DNA of 64,000 nt from Periplaneta americana (Eukaryota > Arthropoda > Insecta > Blattodea > Blattidae). Below are positions 2,690-55,670 of this stretch, piece by piece. The notes under the pieces are model-generated. The model worked only from the letters and a program-made list of their open reading frames with translations. It ran no database searches and was not told where the DNA came from. The first letter of the stretch is position 1; each line of letters opens with the position of its first letter. The DNA is taken from positions 199,501-263,500 of the forward strand of contig NW_027185502.1 of NCBI RefSeq assembly GCF_040183065.1. The letters run 5' to 3'. A program made the position numbers and the translations under genes.

Positions 2690-3828
2690 ACTCCATTACT
2701 GTAATAAAAATCTAAACACGAAAGAAATTAATTAAAATGTGAAATGATATTTCTATCGATTACTCAAGGGCATGTATCACACGAAATATGTTATATTTAT
2801 TTATACTTAGCCTAGCTGACTATAATCTTGAAATTGTAACCACAACACAAAGCAACACATACAATAACTATTATGTATTAATATTAATACTGATATTAAT
2901 TAATTAATTATTAGTAATGGGCTCAGAAATCTAGAACAATTTGAATTTTCAGAATTTAAACTACTGACAACTTGTGTCACTGCTGCCAACATAACAGTTA
3001 TAAAATCACTATCAGTTGCAGTATTTCTCAGTACCGAATTTCGAAATGAAGTTGGCAAAAGAAAATTCAACCTGAAAACTAAAAAAAATCACCATAATCC
3101 ACTAGCTTATGTAGTAATGGGGGAAAAATGGTTAGGTTTCACCCTTAGCGTATTAAGTAAGCTGACCCGGACTATACTATGTGGCAGTAACTTACAGCGA
3201 TTACTGTAGAGTTAAAGTGAGGGGTTGATCAGTCCTCTACACAACGTCTATATTTTCCTTATTGGTCATTCGAGCTTTATGGTTTCGAAAACTGAATTTA
3301 GAAAAATACTCAATTATGAAAGACTGAATTGACAGAAGTATCATTCTTAAGCGTAGTAATAAGCTACAAATACTGGACAAGGAAAGAATGTAGGTTTAGA
3401 TACAACAACCACAAATCCACAGTAAGAACTGATGATGATACTTTCCATGTCGAGCTCAATGTCAATTTTTATCTTTAGTAGGTATCTCATCATTTAATTC
3501 TCACAATTTCTGAACTTAAACTTCTATTAAATCCACGATCTTTTTTTCATTTTCTTTCAACATTCACGTTAGTGTGTGCTTAATCACAGTCTGAAAACAC
3601 TAAAGTAAATTAAAACTGAAATTCAACTGAAAACATTAAACATTTTAATACGTATCTTCAGAGTTGATTTTCATTACTTACTTAGTACATCACTCTGTGA
3701 TTGTTTTTTTTTATTCGGGAAATGAGTTAAGAAAAAAAAAAGAATGAAAGAATTGGGCTGGCTTGAATAATTGCAACTGTGCTGTATCTCAACATTCTAC
3801 TTGGAATACAACTGTTTTAATAACTAGG
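2690..3828. other. AT-rich intergenic DNA, nothing recognised
   Basis: No open frame with recognisable similarity, no terminal repeats and no RNA gene seen. It holds short TAAT runs (about 2880-2915) and homopolymer A/T tracts (3706-3745). It may lie between exons of the minus-strand cobalamin-binding-like gene; I looked for its next exon here and did not find it. Confidence 0.4.
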
Positions 3829-17829: not shown

Positions 17830-18425
17830 TGACTACGAGAATCAGTACAAGTGGTCATGACTGAAATAATACGACTGCCGACTTCCATTATTGTTGAGAA
17901 GTGTATTTAGTGAGAAGTTAGCTAACATACAGTACTCTTTTGTGCAGCATGTTGTTTTGGATAAAACCTACCGGTACTGTATTACAAGTTCCTTGATCAC
18001 AAAGCAAAAGACATTTCGAATAGAGTTTGCTGTACGTGATATTCCAAACAAGTCAACAATTCTATCATCTCCTCAGCGATAGTGGTGAAGACAGAACAGC
18101 AATGCCTCAAAATCATGTGCTGCATGATGATCGATAACATTTAATGTACTTACCATAGAAATCTTTATCTCAATTAAGCCAGAAATAGGATAGCCTACCC
18201 ATGTGGCAAGTATCAGAGAGTATAGAGGATTCCACGTTAAGAAAAAAGCATTGAGCATATGGGGGCTGTTCCATCAATTATTTATAAGTCATTTCTTCAG
18301 AACTGGGAATTAATATGATACGTCATAACACACAAACAACCAGCCCCCAACCATAAAGCAACATACCCCCACCCCTACAATCGACAAATGCACATCGCAG
18401 AATTCAAGATCACCAGTAGTTCAGG
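17830..18425. other. AT-rich DNA upstream of the ribozyme motif, nothing recognised
   Basis: A minus-strand donor-like site (ATG|GTAAGT, 18154-18160) was examined as a possible end of the previous barrel exon, but the matching phase has a stop close by, so it is not called. Confidence 0.35.
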
Positions 18426-18426
18426 A

Positions 18427-18471
18427 GACACTGAAGAAGACGTGACATCATGTCGAAACGGGCCGTCTGTC
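18427..18471 (+). ncRNA. type I hammerhead-ribozyme-like motif
   Basis: The core elements are in order on the plus strand: CTGAAGA (18431-18437, fitting CUGANGA), a 7-bp stem II (gacgtga 18439-18445 with tcatgtc 18448-18454, one G-U pair, 2-nt loop), GAAA (18455-18458), a short 4-bp stem III (acgg/ccgt with a 1-nt loop, 18458-18466), then C at 18467 as the predicted cleavage residue. A 4-bp stem I forms between gaca (18427-18430) and tgtc (18468-18471). One extra A (18438) lies between the core and stem II. Very short stem III hammerheads are known from Penelope-like retroelements and related repeats; no Penelope ORF is recognisable here. Confidence 0.65.
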
Positions 18472-18479
18472 GAAAGAAT

Positions 18480-18990
18480 ATACCTTTTTAAAAATTTTAA
18501 CACTTTTTAACGTATGACTAAATAATTTTATGTTTTTAACAAACAAAGTGTTAACGTGAACTTTAATCAATGGGAATTAATTAGTTTCCTGTAATCCATA
18601 GAACATAATTTCATTGAGAATTAGAGCGATTTCATGTGCTAAAATATTGTTACACCTCTAAAATTATCATAAGTTATATTTAATTTACGAATAATGGGGT
18701 AACAGCTAAATTGGTGGAATAGCCTTCCGCTTTTTTCCAAACATTCCGCTGAGGAATTTAACAGACACGTAGGGGTATTAGAGTTGAGGCTAAGATTTCA
18801 CACTGTTAAAACATATACAACATTGTCTGGGTTTATTATATAAAATATCGGTACACAAAATTTAACTGTCAGCAAGACAAAAAAGACATTAGGTATGTAA
18901 CTTAACTTCTTGTTTGATTATAGTGTGAAGTTAATAACGGAAAACGTGTGCTGCACATAATCTAAAATCAGTATTATAACCCTTCTTAAG
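18480..18990. other. AT-rich DNA, nothing recognised
   Basis: Ends in the block aaaacgtgtgctgcacataa (18951-18970), which recurs at 38987-39006, outside the other Mutator-like terminus. Confidence 0.4.
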
Positions 18991-23833: not shown

Positions 23834-24592
23834 ATGGATTTTGTAGGTATACTGCGAAATACAGTGGAGTGGGAGAATTTTCTAGTTTCACACAATATTT
23901 TCAGGCAGTCAGTGGCGTGTCCAACATGTGCCGATATCAGACAGGTAATAGGCAGGAACAACAGATGTTATTATAGGTGCAACAAACGCCACGGAATGGC
24001 ACTGAGATGTAATTTTGAACGTAGTGCTAGACGTGGTTCATTTGTGGGCGGAAGCAAGTTATCTGTAATCGAAATTGATGAGAGTAAATATGGACGCAGA
24101 AAATACAACTGGGGCAGACGCGTTGAGAGTCAATGGGTTTTTGGGGGGATAGAACGAGGAAATCCTGGTAACTTCTTCCTTGCCCCTGTACAGAACCGCA
24201 ATGCAGAAATGTTGCTAAATCTAATTACACAGTGGATTCTTCCTGGCACGACTATAGTGTATGACTGCTGGAAAGCTTATAATGTCTTGCAAAATGAAGG
24301 CTTCGTGCATCTCCGTGTTAACCATTCTGGTGAGTTTGTTGACACAGACGCCAGCGGCGAGATTCACATGGAAAATGTATCACGTCTAGCGAGACAAATC
24401 TTGCCCGTTCACACCCAGAACATTGAGAGGAAGTGGCTCTCCATCAAGTACTCGATGCATGTGTTCGGCCGAAGGAAGGAGCATTTCGAGGGCTACTTTG
24501 CTGAGCACATATTGAAGTCGAAATTCCCGAGGTCCCGTCTGTTGTGCGAGTTCTTCAAAAGGGCGGCACTGCTCTACCCACCACAACCATAA
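23834..24592 (+). CDS. Merlin-type (IS1595/ISXO2-like) transposase, open reading frame
   Basis: A 252-residue uninterrupted ORF. N-terminus: a zinc ribbon (CPTCADI near residue 29 and RCNKRH near 48). Catalytic domain: IEIDESKYGRRKYNWGRRVE (first Asp about residue 80), SQWVFGGIERGNPGNFFLAP, then ILPGTTIVYDCWKAYNVLQN (second Asp about 143), HLRVNHSGEFVD and HTQNIERKWLSIK (Glu about 202), fitting the DDE_Tnp_IS1595 fold of Merlin elements. Two oddities: the linker/HTH region that normally separates ribbon and catalytic domain is almost absent (RRGSFVGGSKL runs straight into VIEIDES), and about 16 extra residues (IHMENVSRLARQILP) lie before HTQNIER. The ORF is richer in G+C than its surroundings. 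No terminal repeats were found nearby. The start could be the ATG used here or later; the stop is followed by GTAAGT. Confidence 0.8.
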   Translation: MDFVGILRNTVEWENFLVSHNIFRQSVACPTCADIRQVIGRNNRCYYRCNKRHGMALRCNFERSARRGSFVGGSKLSVIEIDESKYGRRKYNWGRRVESQWVFGGIERGNPGNFFLAPVQNRNAEMLLNLITQWILPGTTIVYDCWKAYNVLQNEGFVHLRVNHSGEFVDTDASGEIHMENVSRLARQILPVHTQNIERKWLSIKYSMHVFGRRKEHFEGYFAEHILKSKFPRSRLLCEFFKRAALLYPPQP

Positions 24593-25545: not shown

Positions 25546-25550
25546 TATAA

Positions 25551-25760
25551 ACCTAACCTAACCTAACGTAACCATTCATATAATCTTATACACCTAATCT
25601 AATCTAACCTAACCTAACCTAACGTCTGAGAATAGTACACACTTAACCTAATCTAACCTAACGTCTGAGAATAGTACACACCTAACTTAACCTAACCTAA
25701 CATCTGAGAATAGTACTCACCTAACCTAACCTAACATAACATCTGAGAATAGTACAAAAT
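25551..25760. repeat. CCTAA-rich minisatellite (interstitial telomere-like)
   Basis: Runs of CCTAA (and CTTAA/TCTAA variants) alternate with a spacer reading acgtctgagaatagtacaca or close variants. At least four units of about 40-50 bp can be counted between 25570 and 25760. CCTAA is the complement of the TTAGG telomere repeat of most insects. It lies directly upstream of LINE-B. Confidence 0.8.
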
Positions 25761-30520: not shown

Positions 30521-31784
30521 CTTCGAATTGTAAGAATAACCTCTACCTTATCCTTCAACCTTCTGCTTCTAAGACAGGAGCATGTGCTCATAAAAGTTGT
30601 TGTGACGTTTCATGTTGCAATACTGTGTATTTGTCGGTGCTCTTTGTCAACTGAGTGCGGGTGTTCGGTTTCATAAAGAAATACGATAAGCAGCCACGGT
30701 AGGCCTCCCAATGACTCAGCAACTTTCCTTCTGATGCTAATAAACTACACTCATTTCAATCACAACTAGATAAAGATTCCGCGTGGTTAAAACTGGATCT
30801 TCTGATTCAGACGGCACGCCGCGGCAGTAGCTGTGCGCCCCTTGAAAGCACAATGACATTTGCAGGCTACACATCCCGGAATATTAGAAAAAAAAGTTAC
30901 AATTTCCGGAAGTGCAAAGGAGAAGAAAAAGAGACAGCATTTCAGAAAATGATAAAATATTTCGAAGAAAATTCGGCATACTAATAGCTACCTCCTAACA
31001 TGCGTCTTTGCAGTGGTCATAATAGCATTATTAAATATAATTGCGCCTACTATGAGTGTGAGAAATAATGATAGTTAATTAACGTTTCTGCGTTAATCTA
31101 TGTGCATCAATAAAATACGAGTAGAAAAATTATGTCAATGCAGTGACGTGAATACATTTGAAGTCCTTCCAGTGGCAGGTTCCTCAGGCTCTAAAGTATT
31201 TTCATCTTCATTTAAATCCTGTATATTTTCTGTAAAGTCACAGTCATGATCATGTAGGTACTTCTCTAGCCTACATTGTGCAACACAAAGCAACAAACAA
31301 TGATTGTTTGGACGTTTGAGGCAGCAATTGTACAGGCGTATTGTAGAATATAAAACCTCCTTCTTAGTTGGCCAAATGAAAGTTCTATTATAAAATAGCT
31401 GTCCCCTTATTTTAAAATCCGATTTCGATATGATACCATGAGCCATGGTTCCAAGCCGTCACCCAATAGGACAGTATTTTTAAATCCACTTCACACATCA
31501 CGAACTGATGAATTTTTCCTTATTCTACAGTCATGGACGGACCCTGGCCAACTAGCTGCAACACTCGTAAAGCGTTCTTTTGCATTGCATGTAGCCTGCA
31601 ACATGCTCATCATTTCATGATCATACCAGCATGCTGTGTAGGTTTAGGAATACACAAAAGTCCAGTCTAATACACTAATAGCATTCGGAAAACTAAATTT
31701 CTGTAACTATTCAGTTATTACAACAGTTGTACGTATCTTGTAATGATGTTGACAACTTGAGCCATATGTTCGCTTTTTCCGTTA

Positions 31785-37439: not shown

Positions 37440-37620
37440 TCGGGATGGGAATCCAGTGTGGCTTAGTGGATAAAGCATCAGCACGTAGAGCTGAAAACCC
37501 GGGTTCAAATCCCGTTGCCGGAGAGAATTTTTCTCTGTTCCACTCTTCCATCATCATATGATGACGGAGAATTTCTGCACTGAAATATTATCATATGCAC
37601 TTCGGTACATCGTAATATAA
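37440..37620 (+). mobile_element. tRNA-derived SINE in the hAT element
   Basis: A box gtggcttagtggataaagc (about 37456-37474), B box gggttcaaatcc (37501-37512), then gccggagagaatttttctct. The same post-B-box sequence (ggagctaatttttctcc, agaacaatttttccctc) occurs at 53612-53634 and 54737-54757, defining a SINE family. It is not a functional tRNA: the acceptor arms do not pair. Confidence 0.75.
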
Positions 37621-38966: not shown

Positions 38967-39072
38967 ACAGAACAGTTAGTGACAGAAAACATGTGCTGCA
39001 CATAATCTTAAATATGTTTTATAAATGCTTCTTAACCAAATAAAATAACTATATTGATGTTTGACACAGTTC

Positions 39073-39073
<1 letters not shown>

Positions 39074-39115
<42 letters not shown>

Positions 39116-39343
39116 AGTAGGTTATTTTACGACACTGTATCAACATCTCAGGTTATTTAGCATCTGAATGAGGTGAAGGTGATAATGCCGGTGAAATGAG
39201 TCCAGGGTCCTGCACCGAAAGTTACGCAGCATTTGCTCAAATTGGGTTGAGGGAAAACCCCGGAAAAAACCTCAGCCAGGTAACTTGTCCCAACCAGGAT
39301 TCGAACCCGGGCCACCTGGTTTCGCGGCCAGACGCGCTAACTG

Positions 39344-39400
<57 letters not shown>
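39074..39400 (-). mobile_element. tRNA-derived SINE, antisense, flanked by (ATT)n
   Basis: On the minus strand: the head ttagcgcgtctggccgcgaa, B box gggttcgaatcc (complement of 39298-39309), then a body with gggttttccctcaacccaat and ggaccctggactcattt. (ATT)n arrays lie on both sides (39074-39112 and 39344-39398); the one at its 3' side is probably its tail. The plus-strand ORF at 39196 is its antisense. Confidence 0.75.
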
Positions 39401-39401
<1 letters not shown>

Positions 39402-39631
39402 GCAGTAACTTTTTAGGTACCTAAAACTGTATTTCAGTGCCTACTCATGATCAGTTTAGAGCCTAGTTTAGGTGTCTAAAAGTAGATTAATGGCCAAAAT
39501 GTCTGAAGTCTACTTATAATGTATATTTTTTTTCAGGTATCATTATGGCATTAATTTATCTTTTTTTTTTTTTTTTTATCATTTAAGCGGACTCAGCGTA
39601 CCTATCTTGTGCAATAAACTTGCGAGAACAC

Positions 39632-39700
39632 TGTACGTGTTAGGAAGAGAGTGAGACAAAGGTACTGTATCTCACTCTTTCTTCTAACGGAGGTATCTTA
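39632..39700. other. hairpin
   Basis: gttaggaagagagtgagaca pairs with tctcactctttcttctaac across an 11-nt loop. Unassigned; could be the core of a small MITE. Confidence 0.5.
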
Positions 39701-39962
39701 AGGCAACAGTGTACAGTACTAGCCAAGCCCCGTAAGACTAATGCTTTTTTCTTAATCTGGAATCCTCTATAGTAGGCCTACACGCAGTGCAAGCATTGAA
39801 GGGACCAGACAACAAAATGAGAGTGCAAATTGCCAATAGTTCTTGATTCTTCTTACGTCAATATCATTGGAGTAATAATTACTCTAAATCTGAGACATAC
39901 AGACACACGTGTTCTTAAATATGTTGTTGCTCTTCTGAATATATTACATAATTAATAAAGAA

Positions 39963-54479: not shown

Positions 54480-55670
54480 TCGAAATTATTCAAATCAACT
54501 TTACAGGGAGTTATACCTGAAAGCTTGATTTGCATAATACACGTCACTGTTCATTAACAGAAAACCACAATTTAAGTCACATAGAGTTATTGTGCACTCA
54601 ATGTTGTTTGCTTGACGGTTGTCAGCCCACTTTGAGGTCTGTGGATATAGAGGGAAAAATTGGATCGGTGTCTGGTAGAGTTCCCGGGTAGCTCAGTTGG
54701 TAGAGTGTTGGTACGTTAAACCAAAGGTCCCGGCCCCAGAACAATTTTTCCCTCGAAATTATTCATAGTTAGTATTGCTTTGGGCAACAAATGTCTCCTC
54801 TCGTTTACAAAATACATGTGTTTTCTATCGAAATGTGCGGAATACAAAACACTATGTATTGTGGGAAATCATTTCTCTCTCTTCATTTTGAAACCCACTG
54901 CTTAGTTAACATATCATTTTTTCAGTGGGAATCTGTAAAAACAATGAACATGTTACAGACAGCGAAGTTAAAGAACTAAGAGCTCCTGGAAGGAGAACAA
55001 CGAAAATTTAGAAAATGAAAATAGTAAGAAGTACCAGCAAAACAAATTTAAAGAATGGGATTACCTTCGTCGCCCATTTTCATTGCGTCTCATCCCAATA
55101 TTTGTCTTAGCGTCGAGGAAAAAAATTAAGAATGCTGGCTTCACTACAAGGAACTGGTTTCAAACCTCAGCGGGTGCAAGTCAAATTCCTGGTAAAAAAA
55201 ACGCTATACAGAGTGATTTATAAATCCCTCTGGAGTTTCGGAAGTTGATAGCTCAATAATCATAACCTACACAGCAAAAACACTCAATCAGTAGATAATA
55301 ATCTATCCAAGTTTGTATTCGTAATAGGTGTCATAGTATACTTATAAATTTAACCACTAGGTGGGAAGTCATAACGAAAACATGATGTTCACTGATGAAA
55401 AGTAAAAAATTTCCAGCGTCTTAAAATTCGCTAAATGTGAGTCGATTGCTTCTACTGTGTCTTATGATAACTGTGGTATCGATTTCCGAACCCTAGTAGG
55501 AATTTATGAATCATCCTGTATGTACTGTAGATTGGTTTCCCAAAGTAATTCTCTTTTTATTGTCATTCTTTCACATTTTTCAGAAATGAAAAAGAAATTC
55601 GCCGTCCCAAATTATCTTTCCATGAAATCAACTCAATGAATGCGTTCGATGTGTTTTGTATGCAGCAAGT
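54480..55670. other. intergenic/intronic DNA with one SINE head
   Basis: Apart from the SINE-like segment at 54680-54760, nothing recognised. Confidence 0.35.
54680..54760 (+). mobile_element. tRNA-derived SINE fragment
   Basis: gttcccgggtagctcagttggtaga has a clear tRNA A-box region (TAGCTCAGTTGGTAGA) followed by acgttaaaccaaaggtcccgg; the B box proper is deleted (cccggccccagaac). It continues with agaacaatttttccctcg as in the family at 37440. Not a functional tRNA. Confidence 0.7.

Follow-up and report, generated by a model that had tools for sequence, protein, structure and literature searches.

Penelope-like elements (PLEs) are marked by the combination of a reverse transcriptase (RT), a C-terminal GIY-YIG endonuclease domain and terminal repeats (pLTRs), and an inverted form of these repeats occurs among them. 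Minimal type I hammerhead ribozymes are reported to lie in the pLTRs of such RT and GIY-YIG elements, to stand in tandem at some loci and to have a stem III that is palindromic and very short (Cervera and de la Pena 2014; Lunse, Weinberg and Breaker 2017). Where copies stand in tandem, they are described as acting as double hammerheads joined via this palindromic stem (PMC6466107, citing Lunse 2017), and their activity and role in vivo were still called 'a mystery' in a further paper (PMC7761336). In the Poseidon PLE of Anolis (PAc) the hammerhead lies at the boundary between pLTR and open reading frame (ORF), the ORF starts at stem II with the cut site 26 bp inside it, and reverse transcription starts within the transcript, beyond the ribozyme (PMC11167929). 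Animal non-LTR retrozymes also carry a type I hammerhead; they are non-autonomous and stand in tandem, each unit measuring a few hundred bp (PMC7229834).

Here we describe a hammerhead motif in a stretch of 64,000 nt of Periplaneta americana DNA (the window), and its relatives in the same genome. The cockroach family shares with the published PLE hammerheads the core, the type I layout, the placement in a pLTR of an element with RT and a GIY-YIG-like domain, the tandem arrangement at some loci and the very short palindromic stem III. As in PAc, the hammerhead lies at the pLTR-ORF boundary and reverse transcription appears to start within the transcript, beyond the ribozyme; in contrast to PAc, the cut site of the window copy precedes the presumed ORF start by 98 nt. 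The window unit resembles retrozymes in ribozyme type and size, but it is a truncated copy of an RT-bearing element. We conclude that the motif is very probably a minimal type I PLE hammerhead that a 5'-truncated copy carries in its pLTR, this copy having arisen from one insertion and been duplicated later. A literature search joining hammerhead ribozyme, Penelope and cockroach listed a single paper, on delta-like RNAs.

Layout of the motif and its scores in the window

The letters and coordinates given for the motif in the first-pass annotation proved correct on reading the sequence (Table 1). All type I core letters (CUGANGA, GAA, A15.1-U16.1 and a cleavage H) are present; stem II comprises 7 bp including one G.U, stem I is an open 4-bp helix, and no canonical loop 1 was seen in the motif. 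Stem III had been drawn as 4 bp closed by a 1-nt loop, which is impossible in cis: the same letters give 3 bp around a 3-nt loop, or else pair as a palindrome between two copies in a dimer helix.

Table 1. Features of the hammerhead motif and of the inserted copy that carries it (window positions)
Feature	Positions	Strand	Basis or remark
Left copy of 11-bp target-site duplication, TGGGAATTAAT	18304..18314	.	Exact repeat of 18571-18581
PLE ORF end: last 13 codons and stop, MIRHNTQTTSPQP*	18315..18356	+	Aligned to L043 and L034
pLTR 3' untranslated part, AC-rich	18357..18426	+	Unbroken alignment to L043, ~3557 to 3625
Stem I 5' strand, GACA	18427..18430	+	Partner 18468-18471; model R1
Catalytic core box 1, CTGAAGA (C3 to A9)	18431..18437	+	Direct sequence reading
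Extra residue between A9 and stem II, A (relatives A, T or C)	18438..18438	+	71-row alignment
Stem II, 18439-18445 (GACGTGA) with 18448-18454 (TCATGTC); loop CA, 18446-18447	18439..18454	+	Covariation among relatives
Core box 2, GAA (G12 A13 A14)	18455..18457	+	Sequence and core-free match listing
Stem III, ACGG-G-CCGT, palindromic	18458..18466	+	Self-duplex -13.0 kcal/mol
C17; predicted cleavage 18467/18468	18467..18467	+	Place within core
Stem I 3' strand, TGTC	18468..18471	+	Direct sequence reading
pLTR 3' of ribozyme, to A of presumed start codon (AATCAATG)	18472..18570	+	L043 1051-1145
Right copy of target-site duplication	18571..18581	.	Script-found exact repeat

The window data alone are insufficient to settle the hammerhead identity. 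The Rfam match above threshold that had been proposed as a check was not obtained, with RF00163 (Hammerhead_1) scoring 10.9 bits (E = 7) at the motif against a gathering threshold of 34; no hammerhead family reached Rfam gathering in the whole 64-kb window, and a permissive search gave none acceptable. Folded by itself, the 45-mer has its energy minimum (-10.4 kcal/mol) in a structure other than the hammerhead, which comes to -6.5 kcal/mol, and this minimum is no better than those of shuffled sequences (z = -0.29). Among five sequences folded, the hammerhead was the minimum-energy fold only in the subfamily D sequence, and none of the five clearly beats its shuffles.

A loose hammerhead descriptor retrieved this single site from both strands of the window. 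The same descriptor retrieved 22 sites from 200 Mb of order-3 Markov sequence, corresponding to 0.014 expected per window, and one of these 22 equals the window motif in stem lengths (at least 7 bp in stem II and at least 4 bp in stem I). The pattern CTGANGA..CGAAACG matched once in the window, with 0.01 matches expected.

Recurrence in the genome

The genome searched comprises 3,231,669,367 bases (3.23 Gb) in 91 contigs, of which the window is C21:199501-263500. Genome-wide, the exact core pattern CTGANGA...GAAACGGGCCGTC has 1,982 matches (979 + 1,003) and its reversed control none; a looser pattern with stem III left free has 2,480 (1,222 + 1,258; control 1), and a pattern anchored only outside the core has 863 (425 + 438; control 0). 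Since matches can overlap (for example C1:106018855-106018913), the copy number is somewhat below these counts. Among the matches listed for the core-free pattern, 100 rows (contigs C1 and C2 only) gave 98 that were distinct and readable, one of the other two being a repeated place and one truncated; by eye, all twelve core letters are present in 84 of them and not in the other 14. The search for genomic recurrence suggested at first pass was thus strongly positive for both core patterns, and the call of a minimal type I hammerhead of the PLE kind was right. More generally, a weak single-copy ribozyme call lying below the Rfam threshold can be settled via genomic recurrence.

The idea of a loose motif matched by chance, to which the sub-threshold Rfam score would lend itself, is refuted by this genome-wide recurrence: against it stand the small number of sites expected per window and the thousands of core-intact matches in the genome, which together leave it a practically negligible probability. 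In viral contigs the core pattern occurred at five loci, with middle segments unlike those of the PLE hammerhead family.

Covariation in stem II and the extra residue

From 100 rows of the looser pattern (among the matches listed; all on contig C1) we aligned 71 distinct sequences, the window row excluded. Under the hammerhead structure, 87.7% of cells pair (85.1 in shuffles), 50 cells are changed on both sides (24.7 +/- 4.0 in shuffles) and the covariation score amounts to 0.170 (0.126 in shuffles; 0.004-0.082 in slid controls), values each reached by 0 of 500 shuffles, a count that is not a probability because the aligned rows are related. Pairs with a change (188/500) and pair types (234/500) showed no excess over the shuffles. 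Three of the five measures thus show stem II to covary between subfamilies, with variants such as GACGT/ACGTC, GACGC/GCGTC, GATGC/GCATC and GACACC/GGTGTC. Decay of CpG (C to T, G to A) can produce what looks like compensation at pair 3 of stem II; in our judgement it does not explain most of the change at pair 5. The search pattern itself fixed the core, stem I and the bases just before the cut, which are thus uninformative in this alignment; A15.1 was left free and is A in 71/71 rows.

The extra A between A9 and stem II had been regarded as unusual in this copy. It is no private defect: a residue is present at this place in all 71 aligned relatives (T in 38, A in 27, C in 6), one row (C1:187903662) being ambiguous owing to a core gap that allows another reading, and it is therefore a family feature. 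Compared with the published PLE hammerheads, the 71 cockroach relatives add this residue; a family-wide extra residue may already be in print. The plus-strand hammerhead of chrysanthemum chlorotic mottle viroid is reported to have an extra A in its catalytic core (De la Pena and Flores 2001, as cited in PMC6155905 and PMC3705267). That A lies between A9 and helix II. There it belongs to a viroid RNA, whereas here the extra residue is common to the copies of a retroelement lineage.

A family model built from the 71 rows without the window (R1) recovered 18427-18471 at 68.3 bits (E = 1.5e-12) as its sole hit in the 64 kb; since the rows of R1 were chosen by the core pattern, this hit shows family membership and not activity.

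The carrier element and the window copy

Relatives of the motif lie within the pLTRs of elements with PLE features. In L043 an RVT_1 domain (E = 1e-16) is accompanied by a GIY-YIG match (PF01541, E = 7.6e-4) whose 20.2 bits fall under the Pfam cut-off of 22.6; its ORF is split into several frames, and two hammerheads stand on one strand at 1010 and 3630, 2,620 nt apart. L034 likewise carries RVT_1 (E = 4.8e-12), with one hammerhead 75 nt downstream of an ORF stop and a second one inverted. Its last ORF had no GIY-YIG match even at E 10, and its RT ORF matched no solved structure at E 0.001; the GIY-YIG motif FYIGQTGRSFHTRYNEH is readable by eye in both elements. The terminal repeats are direct in L043 and inverted in L034-L040, L044 and L045. 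A search of viral contigs for relatives of the PLE RT found none.

The window unit, 18315-18570, measures 256 bp and aligns at ~84% with the ORF end and pLTR of L043. Its ORF remnant aligns with the ORF end of L043 (IVRHSIQTANP...) and with the ORF end and stop of L034 (VRHSIQTTNPPP*). The first-pass statement that no Penelope ORF is visible was thus nearly right, in that only the final 13 codons and the stop persist; with the ORF reduced to these, the unit is a 5'-truncated PLE copy, and not the solo element or new host repeat that had been considered. We call the start codon at its 3' end presumed because the L043 ORF is broken, and its TG may be the element's own or part of the duplication.

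Seven sister copies were read, and the insertion is common to all of them and to the window copy. Both duplication copies are found in six of the seven, L003 having one right-side mismatch, and a ninth place of the same family lies at C15:151920858. No empty insertion site was found among five loci (94-95% matches, probe 31000-31400), from which the surrounding stretch is absent. A DNA-transposon end was considered and rejected, as the flanking matches to 38974-39771 come without paired ends.

The window copy is single, R1 having no other hit in the 64 kb, and no tandem repeats were found at the locus; being single and without an ORF, it is most likely a relic that is inactive now, and could at most be a weak cutter of a host transcript. 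Its conversion into a domesticated ribozyme regulating a host transcript would agree with the unbroken core letters of the window copy and of 7/7 sisters; as the copies are recent duplicates, however, this intactness requires no selection. Stem-loop II is altered in three of the seven (the loop in L005, the stem in L006 and L008), as drift would give, and Pfam matches, found in five of the ten window ORFs scanned, were above cut-off only for transposon-type domains or DUF4371. We therefore hold domestication to be extremely unlikely.

The small size of the unit could also suggest a stand-alone metazoan retrozyme, that is, a small non-autonomous tandem repeat of ~170-400 bp, or ~150-450 bp taken broadly, with a type I hammerhead, spread via circular RNA. 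Direct hammerheads at two other places speak in the same direction. At L042:997-1271 two of them, 238 bp apart, are connected by a PLE with an almost wholly deleted ORF, and at L041:1061-1269 three stand in tandem with a spacing of 86 bp. However, the window unit begins inside a PLE ORF and stops at a presumed start codon, has no tandem copy, and belongs to a family whose members extend into RT and GIY-YIG-like ORFs and vary in their 5' limits. On these grounds the retrozyme origin appears very improbable, and we retain the truncated PLE copy. The retrozyme-like size and layout of L042 hint that retrozyme units may derive from PLEs by deletion.

Ends of the copies

We read the ends of 53 distinct hammerhead copies, many of them retrieved by the core pattern and the seven sisters of the window copy excluded. 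Of the 53, 25 carry a strict 3' motif whose end is AATCAAT or AATCAAG, one of the 25 being the first pLTR of L043, which is internal to its element. The base after this motif is G in 20/25 and the next one A in 19/25, and the true end of some copies may thus lie a few bases later. Among the other 28 are inverted copies whose left arm ends earlier, cases in tandem or cut off, and three that narrowly miss the strict motif (L028, L042 and L044). The 5' limit of homology among the copies varies from 1918 to 3624 on L043; in inverted copies this limit is a strand switch, and in L047, L049 and L051 the edge of the fetched stretch.

Among 32 rows, the window family, L026, L038, L044 and L048 show exact flanking repeats of at least 8 bp in suitable positions. 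L015 has a repeat of this length within simple sequence, and those of L043 and L051 mark no true 5' end; in the remaining rows a flanking repeat was absent or just 6-7 bp long. To judge from these sequences, the ends of the copies fit target-primed reverse transcription with 5' truncation. The copies run ~100 nt past the cleavage site, and their template RNA was therefore uncut at that ribozyme, in agreement with the Anolis PLE, for which cleavage is reported to be unnecessary for insertion in vitro (PMC11167929).

Traces of cutting were sought in one subfamily, where the base immediately before the segment that follows the cleavage site is C17 in 796 places and something else in 22. A strand switch from an antisense hammerhead accounts for 12 of the 22, a point change for one and an internal deletion for one. 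Starts exactly at the cleavage site, counted only where three upstream bases do not match, occur in 10 places, as compared to three starting two bases upstream and two starting two bases downstream; of the eight site starts inspected among the 10, one is an internal deletion and two are arms of one inverted pair. The excess of starts at the cleavage site is a weak hint that may reflect cutting.

In L089 and L091 inverted PLE arms both begin at the predicted cleavage site (TGTCG), and in L091 they are directly joined. Strand switches at TGTCG microhomology were observed in 12 other places.

A possible mode of action

In another subfamily stem III reads ACGGG-N-CCCGT and is also palindromic; the self-duplex energies of the stem III forms tested are -13.0 and -19.6 kcal/mol. 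Taken together with the double hammerheads described in PMC6466107, the palindromic stem III leads us to infer dimeric cutting; cleavage itself, a role in the PLE cycle and the start codon are likewise inferred, whereas the anatomy, family, recurrence, 3' end, duplication and covariation are shown by the sequences. The truncated copy stems from a single insertion event and later travelled within a larger duplicated stretch. Where elements stand in tandem, read-through RNA would contain one hammerhead per unit, and two hammerheads could pair via the palindromic stem III, forming a 4+4-bp helix between copies. The paired hammerheads would then cut the RNA ~100 nt upstream of the next ORF.

Alternatively, PLEs might keep the motif for another role, such as RT-protein binding or a start structure, with RNA cutting having been lost. 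This would fit the low predicted stability of the hammerhead fold, the extra residue beside stem II and the position of the 3' ends of copies past the ribozyme, as well as the Anolis PLE, whose hammerhead cut only with protein and was dispensable for insertion in vitro (PMC11167929). Against it, the common forms of subfamilies A and C in the core-free listing have identical core letters, stem I and stem III, their differences being confined to N7, the extra residue and stem-loop II; the core constancy of the 71-row alignment is no evidence here, because the search pattern fixed the core. We consider a purely non-cutting role unlikely.

A further, rather doubtful proposal is that of a whole PLE lineage, present here in many copies, with an obligatory extra residue between A9 and stem II and a palindromic stem III, in which activity would be delayed until tandem copies or protein join. 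If true, this would represent a dimer-gated hammerhead variant conserved across subfamilies. The genome provides a large natural set of PLE hammerheads, which share one insertion and can be used to ask why PLEs retain a poorly folding ribozyme.

Surroundings of the locus

The window (1-64000, within C21:190000-270399) sits in a very large duplicated stretch, which a segmental duplication may have produced or which may itself be a giant mobile element. Window ~8-28 kb has counterparts at 97-98% in five other copies. For two of the five, on C15 and C9, short probes gave ordered matches from 0.2-0.5 kb to 45.6 kb (92-99.7%), resuming at 59.2 kb, as if the window had ~8.8 kb extra relative to both. 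On C15 the match persists beyond the window, 10 kb to its left and ~7 kb to its right; at 30 kb to the left and 36 kb to the right no match was found.

An ORF at 23834-24592 encodes an ISXO2-like transposase domain (E = 7.9e-15) and may represent a Merlin-type DNA transposon. Arrays of the CTAAC/TTAGG type, TTAGG being the insect telomere repeat, lie at 25550-25756 and 2523-2552. Two tRNA-like matches at Rfam gathering, at 37452-37523 (44.8 bits) and 54682-54741 (29.0 bits), may each be a gene, a pseudogene or a SINE head.
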